A program made the position numbers and the translations under genes. Source: Acidobacteriota bacterium (lineage in GTDB: Bacteria; Acidobacteriota; Vicinamibacteria; Vicinamibacterales; 2-12-FULL-66-21). Taken from it: a stretch of DNA of 64,000 bases. The notes beneath the pieces were generated by a model, which saw only the letters and a list, made by a program, of their open reading frames with translations, did not search any database and was not told where the DNA came from. The stretch's first letter is position 1. Each line of letters starts with the position of its first letter. The DNA is taken from contig QHWT01000057.1 in assembly GCA_003222675.1 (NCBI GenBank), forward strand, positions 1 through 64,000, read 5' to 3'. Shown here piece by piece: positions 28,604-63,800 of the stretch.

Positions 28604-28605
28604 CC

Positions 28606-28650
28606 ACGGATCACACGGATCACACGGATCACACGGATCGCACGGATCCC
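28606..28650. repeat. 9-bp tandem repeat (ACGGATCAC)
   Basis: Five consecutive copies of ACGGATCAC or close variants, directly after the permease stop codon. The word CCACGGATCACACGGAT is the reverse complement of the ATCCGTGT...GTGG words in the 47-bp array that follows, so the two blocks may pair. Confidence 0.85.
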
Positions 28651-28692
28651 ACCGAATGCACGGACCCACGGATCGCACAGATCGGATCGGTG

Positions 28693-28899
28693 TCTTCCGT
28701 GTAATCTGTGGCTCGTGGATTGCGCGGATCAGATCCATGTCTTCCGTGTAATCTGTGGCTCGTGGATCGCGCGGATCAGATCCATGTCTTCCGTGTAATC
28801 TGTGGCTCGTGGATTGCGCGGATCAGATCCGTGTCTTCCGTGTAATCTGTGGCTCGTGGATTGCGCGGATCAGATCCATGTCTTCCGTGTAATCTGTGG
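28693..28899. repeat. 47-bp tandem repeat leading into the aspartate kinase gene
   Basis: Four full copies of a 47-bp unit starting TCTTCCGTGTAATCTGTGGC begin at 28693, 28740, 28787 and 28834. A partial fifth starts at 28881. Copies differ by one or two bases (for example CCATG/CCGTG). The truncated copy ends three bases before the ATG at 28903, so the array occupies the whole promoter and leader region of the gene. No Shine-Dalgarno sequence is visible. Confidence 0.95.
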
Positions 28900-42876: not shown

Positions 42877-43356
42877 GTGAGCACCGTGCGCCGACGCGCC
42901 GTCACCGCCAACAACTGGGGTAAGCCCGATCGCAATGAATCCGGAGAGCCAATCTGCCGCTGGTGCCGCACGGCCGTCCGCGCGCCGCGGCGGACGTTCT
43001 GCAGCGACGCCTGCGTGCACGAGTGGAAGGTGCGCAGCAGTCCCGGTTACGTCAGGGACAGGGTCTGGAAGCGCGACGCAGGCGCGTGCCGTCTGTGCGG
43101 ATTCAACGTGGGGAAAGCGGAGCGCCTCTGGCGGCGTCAGAAGCCGCGCGGGTTCGATCGCGTGGCGCGACGAAGATGGCGCGCCGCCCGTCCCCGGTGG
43201 GAAGCAGATCACATCGTCCCCGTCGCCGATGGTGGAGGAGAATGCGGGCTCGAGAACTATCGCTTACTGTGCAGGGACTGTCATCGCGCCGTGACTTCAC
43301 AGTGGCGCAAGACGCGAGTCACCAGTTGCCAGTTAGCAGTTACCGGTCGCCAGTAG
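42877..43356 (+). CDS. HNH endonuclease-like zinc protein
   Basis: About 159 residues from a GTG at 42877 (GTG at 42886 also possible; no ATG gives a sensible start). An N-terminal zinc-binding pair (ICRWCRTAV, FCSDACVHEWK) precedes the HNH module: CRLCGF, ADHIVPVADGGG and NYRLLCRDCHRAVTSQ. The DH...N...H order fits the family, with four cysteines for a structural zinc. Such proteins cut DNA, but this one has no neighbouring methylase or transposase. The last 12 residues or so (TSCQLAVTGRQ) are encoded by the heptamer array that begins at 43321, so the C-terminus was probably extended by the repeat. Confidence 0.8.
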   Translation: MSTVRRRAVTANNWGKPDRNESGEPICRWCRTAVRAPRRTFCSDACVHEWKVRSSPGYVRDRVWKRDAGACRLCGFNVGKAERLWRRQKPRGFDRVARRRWRAARPRWEADHIVPVADGGGECGLENYRLLCRDCHRAVTSQWRKTRVTSCQLAVTGRQ

Positions 43357-43474
43357 CCAGTCGCCAGTCGCCAGTCGCCAGTGTAGGCTGATTGGATCGC
43401 GGGCGGCGATAAACTGGAAACTGGCAACTAGAAACTGGCAACTGGTAACTGGCAACTGGTAACTGGTAACTGGT
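43321..43474. repeat. Opposed heptamer arrays between convergent genes
   Basis: CCAGTTG/CGCCAGT words (43321-43382) and then the complementary AACTGGC/AACTGGT words (43411-43474), nine or so in a row. The first block is partly inside the HNH gene and the second ends eight bases before the stop of the minus-strand gene. The blocks can pair as a long imperfect hairpin. Confidence 0.9.
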
Positions 43475-43482
43475 AGCTTTCT

Positions 43483-56048: not shown

Positions 56049-56945
56049 TCAGGGATCGGGACTCTGTCCAGTTCCGGCACGAGTGGCCTCTGCCCGGGGC
56101 TGACGAACCATGATAGCGCGCGCGTAGAGCAAGGTGAAACCTGCGCGCTGCACGTTCTCCTGCGACTTCGATGCCGGCTGAGTCGTGACGATCGCAAGCT
56201 CGCAGCCCTCACGCGCGGCATCGACGAGGCGCGCGCGGAGCAGTGCCGACTGCACGCCACGCCGGCGGTGATCCGGCAGCGTAGCGGCGCCGCACAATTG
56301 GGCGAGACCGTCAATGATGCGGAGCGAGGCGCCACCGGCGAGTGCCCCGTCTCGATGCGCGAGGTAACACACCAGACCCGGGATTCGCGCGAAGTCATCA
56401 AACACGCGTTCGAGCGCATCACGCGCCACCGATTCATGCGAGGGAGGTCCATCGAACACGTCGGGATGCGCAAAACCCGTCGCGACGGCATTGAGCCACG
56501 ACGCGCCGTCGGTTTTCGATGCGCGGCCGACGCGGACGCCATTCGCCGCATGCGTGTCGCATTCGACGGCCGCACGATCGACGATCGCCTTCGTCAGCTC
56601 AAGGCCCAGAACGTGTTCGAAGTTGACGAGATGATAGCCGCGCCGCGCGAGCCGCGTCGCGACGTCCGGATCCGCCAGCGCCGCGAACTCGACCTGCAGC
56701 GGCGCGTCGCGTCGATCGAACTCGCGCTCGACGTCGGCGAGAACGTCCTCATCCAGCGGCGCGAATCCGAGCCCGGCGAGCTTGTTGAATGGTTCACCTG
56801 GTCCGCCGTAGACCGCTGTCGCGCCTCCCACCGGCGCAGTGAGCGCATCCGCGCGCCGCATCTTCGCGAGCTCGCCAAAGGCCACGGCCATCGCGCATTC
56901 CGCGCGTTCCACGCGCGCCGCGAGAGAGGTGGTTGCGAACAGCAT
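56049..56945 (-). CDS. GNAT-family N-acetyltransferase
   Basis: A 298-residue protein with a C-terminal GNAT fold (about 150-285; YLAHRDGALAGGASLRIIDG, LCGAATLPDHRRRGVQSALL). The acetyl-CoA loop R-R-x-G-V/x-A is DHRRRGVQSALL. The N-terminal half (about 1-140) also looks GNAT-like but lacks the loop (EPFNKLAGLGFAPLDEDVLA), as in tandem-GNAT proteins. I chose the ATG at 56945; the frame runs on into the G-rich heptamer array, which is not believable as protein. Substrate unknown. Confidence 0.85.
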   Translation of the reverse strand: MLFATTSLAARVERAECAMAVAFGELAKMRRADALTAPVGGATAVYGGPGEPFNKLAGLGFAPLDEDVLADVEREFDRRDAPLQVEFAALADPDVATRLARRGYHLVNFEHVLGLELTKAIVDRAAVECDTHAANGVRVGRASKTDGASWLNAVATGFAHPDVFDGPPSHESVARDALERVFDDFARIPGLVCYLAHRDGALAGGASLRIIDGLAQLCGAATLPDHRRRGVQSALLRARLVDAAREGCELAIVTTQPASKSQENVQRAGFTLLYARAIMVRQPRAEATRAGTGQSPDP

Positions 56946-56964
56946 GGCGGACAGTATGACCGAG

Positions 56965-57219
56965 GCGCGGGGCGCGGGGCGCGGGGCGCGGGCCGCGGGG
57001 CGCGGGGTGCGGGGTGCGGGCCGCGGGGCGCGGGCGCGGGGCGCGGGGTGCGGGGTGCGGGGCGCGGGGCGCGGGGTGCGGGGCGCGGGGTGCGGGGTGC
57101 GGGGCGCGGGGCGCGGGGTGCGGGCCGCGGGGCGCGGGGCGCGGGGTGCGGGTGCGGGGTGCGGGGCGCGGGGTGCGGGGCGCGGGGCGCGGGGTGCGGG
57201 GTGCGGGGTGCGGGGTGCG
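56965..57219. repeat. G-rich heptamer minisatellite
   Basis: About 36 copies of a 7-bp word GCGCGGG/GTGCGGG/CCGCGGG in 255 bp, with two 6-bp units. One strand is almost free of A and T apart from the T of GTGCGGG. Runs of G3-G4 every seven bases give strong quadruplex potential. It lies directly upstream of the GNAT start. Confidence 0.97.
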
Positions 57220-57245
57220 AGGCACGATCCCAGAGGCGCCACAAC

Positions 57246-57357
57246 GAACCCTGAACCGTGAACCGAGAACCGAGAACCGAGAACCGAGAACCGTGAACCG
57301 TGAACCGTGAACCGTGAACCGTGAACCGTGAACCGTGAACCGTGAACCGTGAACCGT
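57246..57357. repeat. GAACCGT/GAACCGA heptamer array
   Basis: Sixteen perfect-length 7-bp units: one GAACCCT, one GAACCGT, four GAACCGA and ten GAACCGT. It fills the region 5' of addB. With the G-rich array it makes up most of the 463-bp divergent spacer 56946-57408. Confidence 0.97.
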
Positions 57358-57360
57358 TGA

Positions 57361-57394
57361 TATACTGAGGAAACGGCTGCGCGGCGCAGCCGTT
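57361..57394 (+). promoter_or_regulatory. Candidate -10 box and leader hairpin of addB
   Basis: TATACT (57361-57366) is a plausible -10 just after the heptamer array, though no good -35 lies in the array. It is followed by a 10-bp perfect stem AACGGCTGCG (57372-57381) / CGCAGCCGTT (57385-57394) with a 3-nt loop, 14 bp before the addB start. Confidence 0.4.
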
Positions 57395-57408
57395 CACGGT
57401 GACCCGGC

Positions 57409-60400
57409 ATGGCGTCCGGGATGGAGCCACAGATGGTCCGCCTGTTCGAATCCTCTGCAACAGAACTCCGACTGGCCGAAGCGCGTGCTTTCGTCGACCG
57501 CGAGGCCCGGCGCGGCGACGTATTGATCGTTGCCGCTTCCCGCGGAGCCGCGGATGATCTCGCGCGTTCGATTGCCGTCACGCGTGGCGCCACGATCGGC
57601 CTGCACCGATTCAGCTTCACTCAGCTCGCCGCGCGGCTTGCCGCGCCGATCCTCGCCAACCAGCAACTGGCGCCCTCGACGTACCTTGCGACCGAGGCGG
57701 TCGCCGCGCGCGCGGCTTTTGATGCGCGCCGCGAACACGCGCTCGCGTACTTCGAGCCGGTCGCGGCCATGCCGGGGTTTGCGCGCGCGCTCGCGCGCAC
57801 GCTGCAGGAAGTCCGGCTCGCGCAGGTCGACGCCGATCGCCTGGCCTCTTTGCCGCTTGGCGGCCCGGATCTCTCGGAGTTGCTCGCGCGTTTCGACGAG
57901 CAGTTCGCGGCGGCGGCTGCAATCGATCGCGCCACGCTGTTCGACACCGCGACACGAGCGCTTCTTCCGGCTGAAGGCGGTAGCCACGGGAGCGGTGGAA
58001 GGAACCTTCAGCTGGGCGCCCCGTTGCTCCTGCTCGATGTCCCGCTTGACTCGCCCGTCGAGTTCGAATTCGTCCGTGCGTTGCTCCAGCCGCACCGTTC
58101 CGTGCTGATCACGGTGCCGTTCGGCGACATTGCGGCGTTGAAGCGCCTGCACTCGATTGGCCTCGAACCTGAGATTCTCGAACAGGAGGGAGACACCGAT
58201 CTCGTCGCGCTGCGCCGGAATCTATTCGCCACGCGCCAGCCGCCGATCCGCGGTGCGCGCGGCGACGTCACGTTCTTTTCGGCGCCCGGCGAAGGACGCG
58301 AGTGCGTCGAGATTGCGCGCCGCATCCTGCAGGAGTCCCGCGCCGGCGTGCCGTTCGATGAAATGGCGGTGTTCCTGCGCGCGCCGCAGCGATACGTCGG
58401 TCTGCTCGAGCACGCGCTCAATCGCGCGGGCGTTCCCGCGTGGTTCGATCGCGGCACCCGCCGTCCGCATCCCGCCGGCCGCGCGTTCCTCGCGGTCCTC
58501 GCGTGTGCGTGCGAACAGCTTTCCGCCCGGCGCTTCGCCGAATACCTGTCGCTCGCGCAGGTCCCATCCCTAGACGACAAGTCACGCGCGCCCGAGTTCG
58601 TGGCGCCGGACGATGAGGAGCTCACGCTGCCGGGGTCCGGGGTGCGGGACGCGGGATCCGACGAAGAGACGGAGGACGCGACCAGCGCCACCTCTTCTCT
58701 TCGTCCCGCATCCCGCGCCCCGGACCCCGATGAAGAAGCCATCGTCCACGGGACTCTTCGTGCCCCGTGGAAGTGGGAGACGTTGATCGTGGAGTCGGCG
58801 GTGATTGGTGGCGATCCGGCCCGGTGGCATCGTCGGCTGAGTGGGCTCGCGAAGGAGTTTCGCGTTCGCATTGCGGAGGAACGCAAGGAGGACCCCGAAT
58901 CGCCGAAGGCGGCACGACTCGAGCGCGACTGGCGCAACCTCGGTCACCTGCGCGCATTCGCGCTCCCGATCATCGATCAGCTCGCGTCATGGCCGGCGAG
59001 CGCGACGTGGGGAGAGTGGCTCGATCGGTTCGTCGTGCTCGCGCCGATGGTGCTCCGTCAGCCGGAACGCGTGCTGCGCGTAATCGAGCAGTTGCGCCCG
59101 ATGAGCGAGATCGGCCCAGTGCCGCTCGACGAGGCGCGCGATGTGATCGCCGGTCGGCTCTTGTCGATGGAAATCGATCCGCCCAAGAGCCGGTACGGCC
59201 GCGTGTTCGTCGGCAGCCCGCATCAGGCGCGAGGGCGCGCGTTCCGCGTCGTGTTTGTGGCCGGTCTCGCGGAGCGCATGTTCCCGCAGCGCCCGCGCGA
59301 AGATCCCATGCTCCTCGACAAGGAGATGCGCGAGCCGCTCGACGCCGGGTTGATCGTGCAGGAGGATCGCGGCCGCACCGAGCGGCTGTTGCTGCGATTG
59401 GCGGTGGGGGCGGCGACCGAACGGCTCTGGCTGTCGTATCCGCGGATCGAGATCGCGGAATCGCGCCCGCGCGTGCCGAGCTTCTATGCACTCGACGTGA
59501 TGCGCGCCGTCACCGGGCAGGTGCCGAAGCACGAAGCGCTGCAGGAGGACGCCGCCGTCGCCGGCGGAGCCGGACTGGCGTGGCCTGCACCCGACGCGCC
59601 ATCGGAGGCGATCGACGATCTCGAACACGACCTGTCTGTGTTGAAGCAGCTTCTCCAGGCCGAGCCGCGCGCGGCTGTCCGCGGGCGCGCGCATTACCTG
59701 CTGCGGCTCAACGACTCGCTCAAGCGATCGGTCACCGCGCGCTGGGCGCGTGGCCGATCGCTGTGGACGCCGTTCGACGGCATCACGCGCGTGACCGGCA
59801 TGACGAAGCCGATGCTCGAGGCGCAGCGGCTCGGCGTTCGGCCGTACTCGCTGTCGGCGCTGCAGAAATTTGCCGCATGCCCGTACCAGTTCCTCTTATC
59901 GGCTATCCATCGGCTCGAACCGACCGAAGAACCGGAGCCGCTGCAGAAGCTGGATCCGCTGACGCGCGGATCGATCTTCCACGAGGCGCAGGCGACCTTC
60001 TTCCGTGCATTGAAGGAACAGAAGCGCCTGCCGGTGGCGGAGGAGGATGTGCCGCACGCGCTGGCAACGCTCGACGCGGTGATCGCCGCGGTTTCCGCGA
60101 AGTACCACGAGGACCTCGCGCCGGCAATCGAGCGCGTCTGGCAAGACGAGATCGGAGACATCGCGCGCGATCTGCGCGTCTGGGCGCGGCGGCTGCCGCA
60201 GCTTGCGGGCTGGGAGCCTCGGCATTTCGAGTTTGCCTTTGGTCTCTCGGACGAAGGCCGCGATCCCGACAGCCTGCCGGATCCCGTGCTGGTCGACGGA
60301 CGTTTCAAGCTGCGCGGGTCGATTGATCTGATCGAGCGCAAGCACGGCAGCGAGACGCTGCGCGTCACCGACCACAAAACGGGAAAGAACCGGACGACCT

Positions 60401-60753
60401 GGAAGACGGTGATCGGCGGCGGCGCGATCCTGCAGCCGGTGCTTTACAGCCTCGCGATCGAGCAGGCGCTGCAGGTCAAAGTCGAGTCGGGCCGCCTGTT
60501 CTACTGCACATCGGCCGGCGGTTTCGTCGATCACGAGATCCCGATCAGCGAGGCGAACCGCCGCATCGGCCTCGAGGCCCTCGAGATCATCGATCGCGCG
60601 ATCGAGCTCGGCTTCCTGCCCGCCGCCCCCGCGGAACGCGCGTGCACGTGGTGCGACTTCCGTCCGGTCTGCGGGCCCGGTGAACCGCGACGTGTCGCGA
60701 ACAAGCCGGCGGAGAAACTTGGTGACCTCGAGGCGCTTCGCGAGCGTCCGTAG
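57409..60753 (+). CDS. addB: AddB-like helicase/nuclease subunit with 4Fe-4S nuclease domain
   Basis: A 1114-residue protein. The N-terminal half is an inactivated helicase-like fold (DVLIVAASRGAADDLARSIA in place of a Walker A). The C-terminal PD-(D/E)XK nuclease (about 815-1100) has D973 (GSIDLIE), D988 and K990 (TDHKTGK). The four cysteines of the AddB/RecB-type iron-sulfur staple are C824 (AACPYQF), C1079, C1082 and C1088. It pairs with the AddA-like gene downstream to process double-strand breaks. Two heptamer arrays (58632-58659, 58703-58729) encode a linker of low complexity (about 408-441), and a TGAA hairpin lies at 57967-57980. ATGs at 57421 and 57433 are alternative starts. Confidence 0.88.
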   Translation: MASGMEPQMVRLFESSATELRLAEARAFVDREARRGDVLIVAASRGAADDLARSIAVTRGATIGLHRFSFTQLAARLAAPILANQQLAPSTYLATEAVAARAAFDARREHALAYFEPVAAMPGFARALARTLQEVRLAQVDADRLASLPLGGPDLSELLARFDEQFAAAAAIDRATLFDTATRALLPAEGGSHGSGGRNLQLGAPLLLLDVPLDSPVEFEFVRALLQPHRSVLITVPFGDIAALKRLHSIGLEPEILEQEGDTDLVALRRNLFATRQPPIRGARGDVTFFSAPGEGRECVEIARRILQESRAGVPFDEMAVFLRAPQRYVGLLEHALNRAGVPAWFDRGTRRPHPAGRAFLAVLACACEQLSARRFAEYLSLAQVPSLDDKSRAPEFVAPDDEELTLPGSGVRDAGSDEETEDATSATSSLRPASRAPDPDEEAIVHGTLRAPWKWETLIVESAVIGGDPARWHRRLSGLAKEFRVRIAEERKEDPESPKAARLERDWRNLGHLRAFALPIIDQLASWPASATWGEWLDRFVVLAPMVLRQPERVLRVIEQLRPMSEIGPVPLDEARDVIAGRLLSMEIDPPKSRYGRVFVGSPHQARGRAFRVVFVAGLAERMFPQRPREDPMLLDKEMREPLDAGLIVQEDRGRTERLLLRLAVGAATERLWLSYPRIEIAESRPRVPSFYALDVMRAVTGQVPKHEALQEDAAVAGGAGLAWPAPDAPSEAIDDLEHDLSVLKQLLQAEPRAAVRGRAHYLLRLNDSLKRSVTARWARGRSLWTPFDGITRVTGMTKPMLEAQRLGVRPYSLSALQKFAACPYQFLLSAIHRLEPTEEPEPLQKLDPLTRGSIFHEAQATFFRALKEQKRLPVAEEDVPHALATLDAVIAAVSAKYHEDLAPAIERVWQDEIGDIARDLRVWARRLPQLAGWEPRHFEFAFGLSDEGRDPDSLPDPVLVDGRFKLRGSIDLIERKHGSETLRVTDHKTGKNRTTWKTVIGGGAILQPVLYSLAIEQALQVKVESGRLFYCTSAGGFVDHEIPISEANRRIGLEALEIIDRAIELGFLPAAPAERACTWCDFRPVCGPGEPRRVANKPAEKLGDLEALRERP
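58632..58729. repeat. Opposed heptamer arrays inside addB
   Basis: GGGGTCC, GGGGTGC, GGGACGC, GGGATCC (58632-58659) and the complementary-style GTCCCGC, ATCCCGC, GCCCCGG (58703-58729). They encode a Gly/Asp/Ser and Pro/Arg linker and share words with the addA array at 62793-62822. Confidence 0.85.
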
Positions 60754-60811: not shown

Positions 60812-63800
60812 ATGAGCCCGAAGCCCGATCAAGCAGCCCGCGAGGCTATTGCCAACGCGCTCGACGACACGCTCGTCGTCGAGGCTGCGGCAGGCACCGG
60901 CAAGACGACCGAACTCGTGAAGCGCATCGTGCGCATCCTTGCCGATGGCAAGACGAAGGTGCAGAACATCGTCGCGGTCACCTTCACCGAGAAGGCTGCG
61001 GGAGAATTGAAGCTGCGTCTGCGCGAAGCGCTCGACGAGGCGAGACAGCGGGCGGGCTCGTCGGAGACGCTCAATGCCGCGCTCGCGGGGCTCGAAGAAG
61101 CGCACGTCAGCACCATTCATGGCTTCTGCGCGGAGCTGCTGCGGGAGCGTCCGGTCGAAGCCCGCGTCGATCCGTTGTTTGCCGTGCTGACGGAGCCGCA
61201 GGCCGAGCGTCTCTTCGACGAAGCGTTCGGCGGCTGGGTGCAGCTCAAATTGCAGGATCCGCCCCAAGGCATCCGGCGCGCGCTGCGCCGGTCGGTGTGG
61301 CAGGGATTCGGCGCGACGCCGCGACAGGAGACGGCGATCGATCGCCTTCGGCGCGCCGCGTGGGAGCTCGCCCAGTGGCGCGACTTCAATGGTGTATGGA
61401 GCCGGCGCGTGTTCGATCGCGAAGGGGATATCGATCGTCTCGTTGACGAGCTTCATGCCTTCGCGGCGCTCAGCGACAAGCCGTCATACGCGAAGGACCC
61501 GCTGTTCGTCGACACTGCTCCCGCGCGTCATCTAAGCGCGGAGATTGCGCTGCAGCAGGAGTCCCGCCTGAAGGCGGAAGAAACCACCGATTACGACGGC
61601 TGGGAAGCGCGCCTCGTCGATCTCTCACGAGATCGCAACTTCTCAAAGGCGCGTCATGGCCGCGGCCCCGGATACAAACAGGGGACTACGCGTGCGCGCG
61701 TCGTCGAGGCGCTCGATGCGCTACGCGTGAGCCTCGAACAGTTCCGCCTCAACGCGGACGCCGATCTCGCGGCGGCGCTTCAGCGCGAACTGTGGGGCGC
61801 GATTGATCGGTACGAGCAGCTGAAGGCGCGCGCGGGTGCGCTCGACTTTCTCGATCTGCTGCTGAAGGCGCGCGACCTCGTGAAAGGAAACGCAGGCGTG
61901 CGCCTCGGATTTCAGCAACGGTTCACGCACATCTTCGTCGACGAGTTTCAGGATACGGATCCGCTGCAGGCGGAGATCCTCCTGCTGCTCGCTGCCGAGG
62001 ACTCCGCCGCGACCGACTGGCGCACGGTGACGCCCGTGCCGGGTCGTCTGTTCATCGTCGGGGATCCCAAGCAGTCGATCTATCGGTTCCGCCGCGCCGA
62101 CGTGGGTATTTACCGCGACGTGTGCAAACGGCTCGAGGACTGCGGCGCGACGCTTCTCGAGCTCACCACGAGCTTCCGGAGCGTGCCGCAGATTCAGGCG
62201 TTCGTGAACGCGGCATTCGCACCGGTGATGACGGGCGACGCTGCGACGCTACAGGCCCACTATGTGCCGCTGTCGTCGCATCGTGGCGATTTGAAAGGGC
62301 GGCCCGCCGTCATCGCGTTGCCGGTTCCCGAGCCGTATGGCCCGCGCAGTGTGTCTGCGATGTCGATCGAGACATCGCTGCCCGATGCCGTCGGCGCATT
62401 CATCGACTGGGCCGTCAACGAGAGCGGGTGGAACGTCCGGAGCCGCGACATCTGCATCCTCTTCCGGCGGTTCGTCAGCTTCGGCGTCGACATTACCGAG
62501 CTGTACGCGCGCGCGCTCGAGGCGCGTGGCGTTCGTCACGTGCTCGTCGGCGGCAAGAGCTTCCACGATCGCGAGGAAGTGGAGACGATCCGCGCGGCGC
62601 TCGCCGCGATCGAGTGGCCGGACGATGAGCTGTCGGTGTTTGCGACGCTCCGCGGAGCGCTGTTCGCGATCGGCGATGAGGAGCTCCTCGAGTGGAAGCA
62701 GCGGTTCGGCGCGTTCCATCCGTTCCGCATTCCGGAGATGTTCCAGTCGGGACGCGGGTGGCGGGAGGCGCGGCGCGCTGGTTCGGAACCCCCGGATCCC
62801 GCACCCCGCACCCCGGATCCCGGCGACGCACGGCACTTGATTCCTATCGTCGATGCGCTGACCTTCCTTCAGCGTCTTCATCGGCGGCGCAATTACATTC
62901 CCGTCGCGGAGACGCTTCAGCAGCTGCTCGATGCGACGCGCGCGCACGTCGGACTGGTGCTGCGGAGCGCGGGAGAGCAGGCGCTAGCGAACGTGCTGCA
63001 CGTTGCGGAGCTTGCGCGTCAGTACGAAGTCGCAGGCGGATTGTCGTTCCGTGGATTCGTCGACGAGCTGCGCCTTGCGGCCGAGACTGCCCAGGCCGCT
63101 GAAGCGCCGATCCTGGAAGAGGGAAGCGACGGCGTTCGGATGATGACTGTGCACAAGGCGAAGGGGCTCGAGTTCCCGGTCGTCATCCTCGCGGACCTCA
63201 CGTGCAAGCTCGCGCGCGCAGAGGCTGGACGTTGGCTCGATCCCGGAGCGAATGTGTGCGCGCTCAAGCTCGGTGGCTGGGCGCCCATCGATCTCCTGCT
63301 GCACGATGCCGAGGAAGCCGCGCGCGACAGAGCGGAAGGCGAGCGCCTCGCGTACGTCGCGGCGACACGCGCGCGTGACGTGCTCGTCGTGCCCGCCATT
63401 GGCGACGGACCATATGAAGGCGGTTGGCTGGACCCACTGATGACCGCGATTTATCCTCCGGAATCGCAACGCCGCAGCCCATCGCGGTCGGCCGGAGGCC
63501 CCGAGTTCAGATCGAAGGACACGGTGCTGAAGCGGCCCGAGGGCGATCCCGCATCGGTCCGGACTGTCGCGCCAGGCACGTTCGTATTCGACGTGCCGGC
63601 CCTCGGCCCTCGGCCCTCGAACCGCGGCACGTATCACGTGACGTGGTGGGACCCGCACGCGCTGCACCTCGGCGCGGATTCCTCGTTCGGTCTGCGGCGG
63701 GACGATCTGATCGTGAAAGACGGCGACATGTTCGCCGTCGAGGAACGGCTCGCGGAGTACGAGCGGTGGCGCGACGGGCGCGCCGCCGTGATCGCGCAAG

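Follow-up and report, generated by a model that had tools for sequence, protein, structure and literature searches.

Two heptamer arrays between a GNAT acetyltransferase gene and addB are not specific to their locus and lie beside a candidate addB leader RNA

The two heptamer arrays that fill the divergent spacer between a GNAT acetyltransferase gene and addB are genuine and are not locus-specific: they are a known kind of heptameric spacer repeat, present in this genome in a multi-word and genome-private form. The explanation that we favor, at a probability of about 0.6, is that both arrays belong to a dispersed class of heptamer spacer DNA that is mostly neutral and whose extent selection limits, and that addB and GNAT are transcribed from -10 sites lying outside them. 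The window referred to below is the whole 64,000-nucleotide stretch of an Acidobacteriota genome that was analyzed. The names addB and addA, the latter for the long reading frame that follows addB, are our own assignment from the sequence and not database labels.

The GNAT gene occupies 56049-56945 on the minus strand (Pfam PF00583), and its ATG is backed by homologues whose alignments begin at residue 1-2. Between this ATG and addB on the plus strand, TRF reports a G-rich array of GGCGCGG/GGTGCGG units at 56964-57223 (plus strand, period 7, 37.4 copies, score 366) and a GAACCGT/A array at 57246-57357 (plus strand, period 7, 16.0 copies, score 189), the latter containing ten consecutive identical GAACCGT units. 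An earlier note on this DNA had described two heptamer arrays filling the spacer, which is what we find, with 372 bp of repeat by TRF against the 367 bp it had claimed. The quadruplex potential that it ascribed to the G-rich array is likewise present on paper (36 G-runs of at least three, 31 of length four and 5 of length three, giving nine non-overlapping G3+N1-7 motifs). In the nearest relative, G001 of the same genus, whose AddB is 80% identical, a different gene lies upstream of addB.

Repeats of this kind are found throughout this gp6 Acidobacteria genome (7.16 Mb in 152 contigs); most named relatives that AddB retrieved are Acidobacteria MAGs, and several of these carry a gp6 label. Exact (GAACCGT)3 alone has 83 forward and 99 reverse matches (182) spread over many contigs, and since the same words recur genome-wide, the arrays are not special to the GNAT-addB locus. 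The significance that the earlier note attached to a neighboring recombination gene looks incidental, as arrays adjoin many genes. Within 854 kb, comprising 790 kb of other contigs plus the window, period 7 dominates the non-coding tandem arrays, with 46 examples against 8 for period 14 and 7 for period 8, and among coding arrays periods 21, 24, 18 and 7 are the leading ones. Array density is uneven, individual contigs carrying between 23 and 156 per Mb, and is an upper estimate because the contigs were chosen from the listing of GAACCGT matches. Three sampled relatives are likewise rich in period 7. At the same TRF threshold, 100 kb of E. coli K-12, a small control that differs in base composition, yielded no arrays, whatever the period. 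The window also holds, at 28605-28899, a 9/18-bp array and, directly after it, a longer tandem repeat (47-bp unit, 4.7 copies, 95% matches) that is unlike the heptamers.

The words themselves are nearly private to the genome. Among 149 genomes of the order, which we take to be Vicinamibacterales, the exact (GAACCGT)3 pattern occurs in two, this one and G003, and is absent from same-genus G001; the pattern of the G-rich word occurs in eight. Word sets therefore turn over quickly, and within its genome each word occupies many loci. One word is found at many unlinked loci and no shared mobile element accompanies it: a blastn comparison of 200-bp flanks of 64 arrays gave 35 pairs, of which 19 came from neighboring arrays of a single locus and the other 16 were short (17-70 bp) and are provisionally taken to be unmasked degenerate repeats. 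The possibility that the arrays are part of a larger mobile repeat was rejected, flanks not being shared beyond such neighbors and short matches.

Placement relative to genes is also informative. Of 60 arrays of period 7, 14 or 21 in the first 464 kb, 50 are non-coding. They fall in co-directional (37), divergent (9) and convergent (4) spacers nearly in proportion to the spacer bases that these classes hold (75, 19 and 6%, respectively). Across the 854 kb, half of the stop-side array ends (28/56) are no more than 6 bp from a stop codon, where 1000 within-gap shuffles gave 15.4 on average and 21 at most. Only 2 of 58 start-side ends lie within 6 bp of a start codon against 6.0 expected, with start codons that are approximate because genes were called by our own script. 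Array-side stop codons are TAG in 12 cases, TGA in 10 and TAA in 10, against a baseline of 263 TGA, 138 TAG and 88 TAA. Targeting of TAG, suggested by about half of 24 stops judged by eye in a first sample, was rejected when the larger sample gave only a mild excess of TA-type stops. In five of seven neighboring array pairs in the sampled contigs the two arrays carry the same word in inverted orientation, and no pair is a direct repeat; one of the five is in the window at 43313-43475, where two adjacent arrays carry the roughly complementary words CGCCAGT and AACTGGT. The pair at 56964-57357 is not inverted and is one of the two pairs made of unrelated words.

These features would fit a population of intergenic arrays that arise and lengthen in spacer DNA, for which we infer slippage as the lengthening route, and that purifying selection would halt at functional sequence such as stop codons, promoter cores and leaders. 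What counts against this explanation is that the same words occur at many loci that do not share flanks, which local slippage alone does not explain. Two further observations come from the genes downstream. The addA product carries an insert of about 20 residues (about 62755-62835) that is absent from all four aligned relatives covering the region, and its DNA holds CCCGCAC, the complement of the G-rich word. The addB coding sequence contains a long, near-perfect inverted repeat at 58634-58726 (z -7.5 as DNA for a 99-base stretch that folds as a long hairpin), made of G-rich heptamer-like words and situated in a loop whose length varies among relatives. Taken together, the insert and the hairpin point to dispersal of words into tolerated sites, beyond local slippage alone.

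A dedicated and possibly template-directed process could instead write genome-private heptamer words into spacers and tolerated coding loops, a telomerase-like or hairpin-primed copying enzyme being a candidate. The idea draws on the recurrence of one word at many loci that share no flanks, a word set unlike that of the same-genus genome, the mostly inverted neighboring arrays, array starts at stop codons and the G-rich word in the addA insert; we nevertheless consider it unlikely.

On the addB side, an extended -10 element, TGATATACT, lies at 57358-57366 on the plus strand, immediately 3′ of the last GAACCGT-array unit and at a position conserved in relatives. Among 30 addB leaders, 15 have TGNTANNNT at the leader start or immediately before it (0.85 expected by shuffling), and 26 have TANNNT there (8.8 expected). 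The earlier note held that the promoter region had been replaced by repeats. At addB this was rejected, since a conserved extended -10 and a conserved leader stand between the array and the start codon. Its deduction that expression of the two genes has to begin in the repeats or pass through them is likewise unsupported, because the addB extended -10 and leader and a -10-like CATACT of GNAT lie outside the arrays and so do the predicted starts. It was right that the predicted -35 and upstream regions of both genes would fall within repeats. The arrays would occupy the DNA that separates the two predicted -10 elements, and so would have taken over only -35 and upstream regions.

The addB transcript, with a predicted start near 57373, would run from the extended -10 just outside the array into a two-hairpin leader ahead of the Shine-Dalgarno sequence, so that addB probably still depends for its transcription on a conserved promoter and leader of its own. 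The predicted leader RNA spans 57368-57432 on the plus strand, with hairpin P1 (57374-57381/57385-57392), hairpin P2 (57404-57407/57416-57419) and the Shine-Dalgarno GGAG (57423-57426), all as placed by model R1. Relatives keep a constant order before addB: -10-like site, P1, linker, P2 (CCGG-CAYGGCGN-CCGG), Shine-Dalgarno and start. The ATG at 57409 that the earlier note took as the addB start sits in the P2 loop of this conserved hairpin, and the ATG at 57433 matches the Shine-Dalgarno sequence and the register of MIRLIESS in relative L010, which makes 57433 the more likely start. With this correction addB, encoding a PD-(D/E)XK nuclease subunit (Pfam PF12705), runs from 57433 to 60753.

Model R1, trained on 16 leaders, finds matches in 52 of the 149 order genomes (E<=0.01). 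In all 30 of the best matches given loci, 14 of them outside the training set, AddB lies downstream on the same strand, with an alignment that in one case (L166) starts only at residue 151. Base pairs covary across relatives, strongly so in P1, as in structured cis-regulatory RNAs. In 32 distinct sequences, aligned by fitting to model R1, standard pairs fill 98.2% of pair cells (85.0% when shuffled, 28-49% when slid), and 45 two-sided pair changes were counted against 11.4 after shuffling; six of the eight P1 pairs show such changes. P2 is nearly invariant, and covariation is therefore uninformative on it. Folded as a single sequence, the leader from the window does not stand out (z -1.36), the support for structure coming entirely from covariation. 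Rfam has no match to the leader. Across seven addB loci searched at E up to 1 it returned four weak matches to microRNA models, far below gathering scores and off the leader, that were taken as hairpins matched by chance. An alternative pairing that would hide the Shine-Dalgarno sequence was rejected (longest stem 4.28 against 4.30 shuffled, 32 leaders). Neither a ligand nor a switching partner was found, pairing of the linker with the Shine-Dalgarno sequence being no better than shuffled. Among 199 genomes of the phylum, three matched at E<=1e-4, and all three belong to the same order.

The leader resembles structured 5′ leaders and riboswitch-like elements in that a promoter, a covarying hairpin, a sequence-conserved hairpin and a Shine-Dalgarno sequence follow one another in a set order ahead of a single gene. 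It differs in that it has neither an Rfam match nor a ligand that we found, and in being tied to addB. In the literature searched we recognized no description of this leader, or of such arrays in Acidobacteria. We regard the leader as a strong candidate cis-regulatory RNA, hitherto undescribed, that precedes a double-strand-break repair nuclease.

Arrays reach other addB leaders as well. An array of period 7, 14 or 21 lies within 100 bp upstream in six of the 30, this genome included, and the words differ. In three of the six, from the relatives L150, L153 and L164, heptamer arrays end 4-24 bp from the leader and no -10-like TANNNT was seen, and arrays may have displaced the addB promoter there. 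Bounding at promoter cores is therefore not universal.

For GNAT the evidence is weaker than for addB and suggestive only. The transcript would start at or near the ATG (near 56945) from an adjoining -10-like site, CATACT (56953-56958, minus strand), which stands 7 nt before the ATG and is weak, with 4 of 6 consensus letters. A -10-like site lies at about the same place in three of five judged homologues (G010, G030 and G007) and was not found in the other two (G020 and G017); L109, L110 and L111 were left out of this comparison, their matches beginning at residue 3-5 with the start unresolved. A period-7 array is present in G030 too, ending 16 bp ahead of the matched reading frame.

A contingency switch, in which slippage would alter the unit number and thereby tune how one or both promoters are spaced or how strong they are, appears quite unlikely. 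The arrays do cover the predicted -35 positions of both genes, and the run of ten identical GAACCGT units suggests recent expansion. However, the addB -10 is of the extended type, and extended -10 promoters usually need no -35. Similar arrays adjoin many genes in all orientations, and heptamer-repeat loci were more stable than controls in Rehm et al. (2015; PMC4692102), where phase variation was thought unlikely. We regard as decidedly improbable a role as 3′-end or insulator elements, in which hairpins would stop read-through or protect mRNA ends and the present pair would insulate two promoters. The abutment of stop codons and the predominance of inverted over direct neighbors are what such a role would predict, but the GNAT-addB pair is not inverted, its divergent spacer contains no stop codon, and most arrays are single and hence unable to form long hairpins. 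Least probable is that the G-rich array folds into quadruplexes that modulate both promoters or replication: its G-runs and nine motifs would allow it and other heptamer repeats are reported to form quadruplexes in vitro (PMC4692102), but the GAACCGT array and most words of the genome (GAACCGT, CCAGCTT, CGGACCT and others) have no runs of three G, so the ability to form quadruplexes is not what the arrays share, and transcription from either predicted start would not cover the G-rich array, which is upstream of both.

The arrays resemble, in part, heptameric repeats known elsewhere. The G-rich heptamers GGGAATC and GGGGA(C/T)T of Xanthomonas and Nostoc (Rehm et al., 2015; PMC4692102) are alike in their period of 7, genome-wide scatter, over-representation in non-coding DNA, frequent position near or over stop codons, occasional inversion and lack of linkage to mobile elements. 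They differ in that here many unrelated words, mostly without G-runs, share one genome of a different phylum, and in that they are under-represented in divergent spacers, which here hold about their share. Neither of our arrays has a GGGNATC-type word with G-runs of at least three per unit: the G-rich array has G-runs but another word, and the GAACCGT array has no runs of that length. The TAACTGA direct repeats of marine Beggiatoaceae, some Cyanobacteria and Bacteroidetes likewise occupy many loci within a genome as intergenic arrays of a heptamer, but they (PMC4679880) consist of a single word just before start codons, proposed as a translational control site, whereas the arrays described here use many words, avoid start codons and abut stop codons.

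What is new relative to known heptameric intergenic repeats is the multi-word and genome-private form, and it raises the question of how 7-base words spread through a genome when no mobile element carries them. For the GNAT-addB spacer we infer that the arrays are mostly neutral. With all sequence as far as the predicted -10 elements overwritten by arrays, the locus gives a measure of the upstream DNA that a promoter can dispense with, and amounts to a natural linker scan of promoters in a poorly studied order. The candidate addB leader RNA is the more interesting by-product of this analysis and merits separate study.
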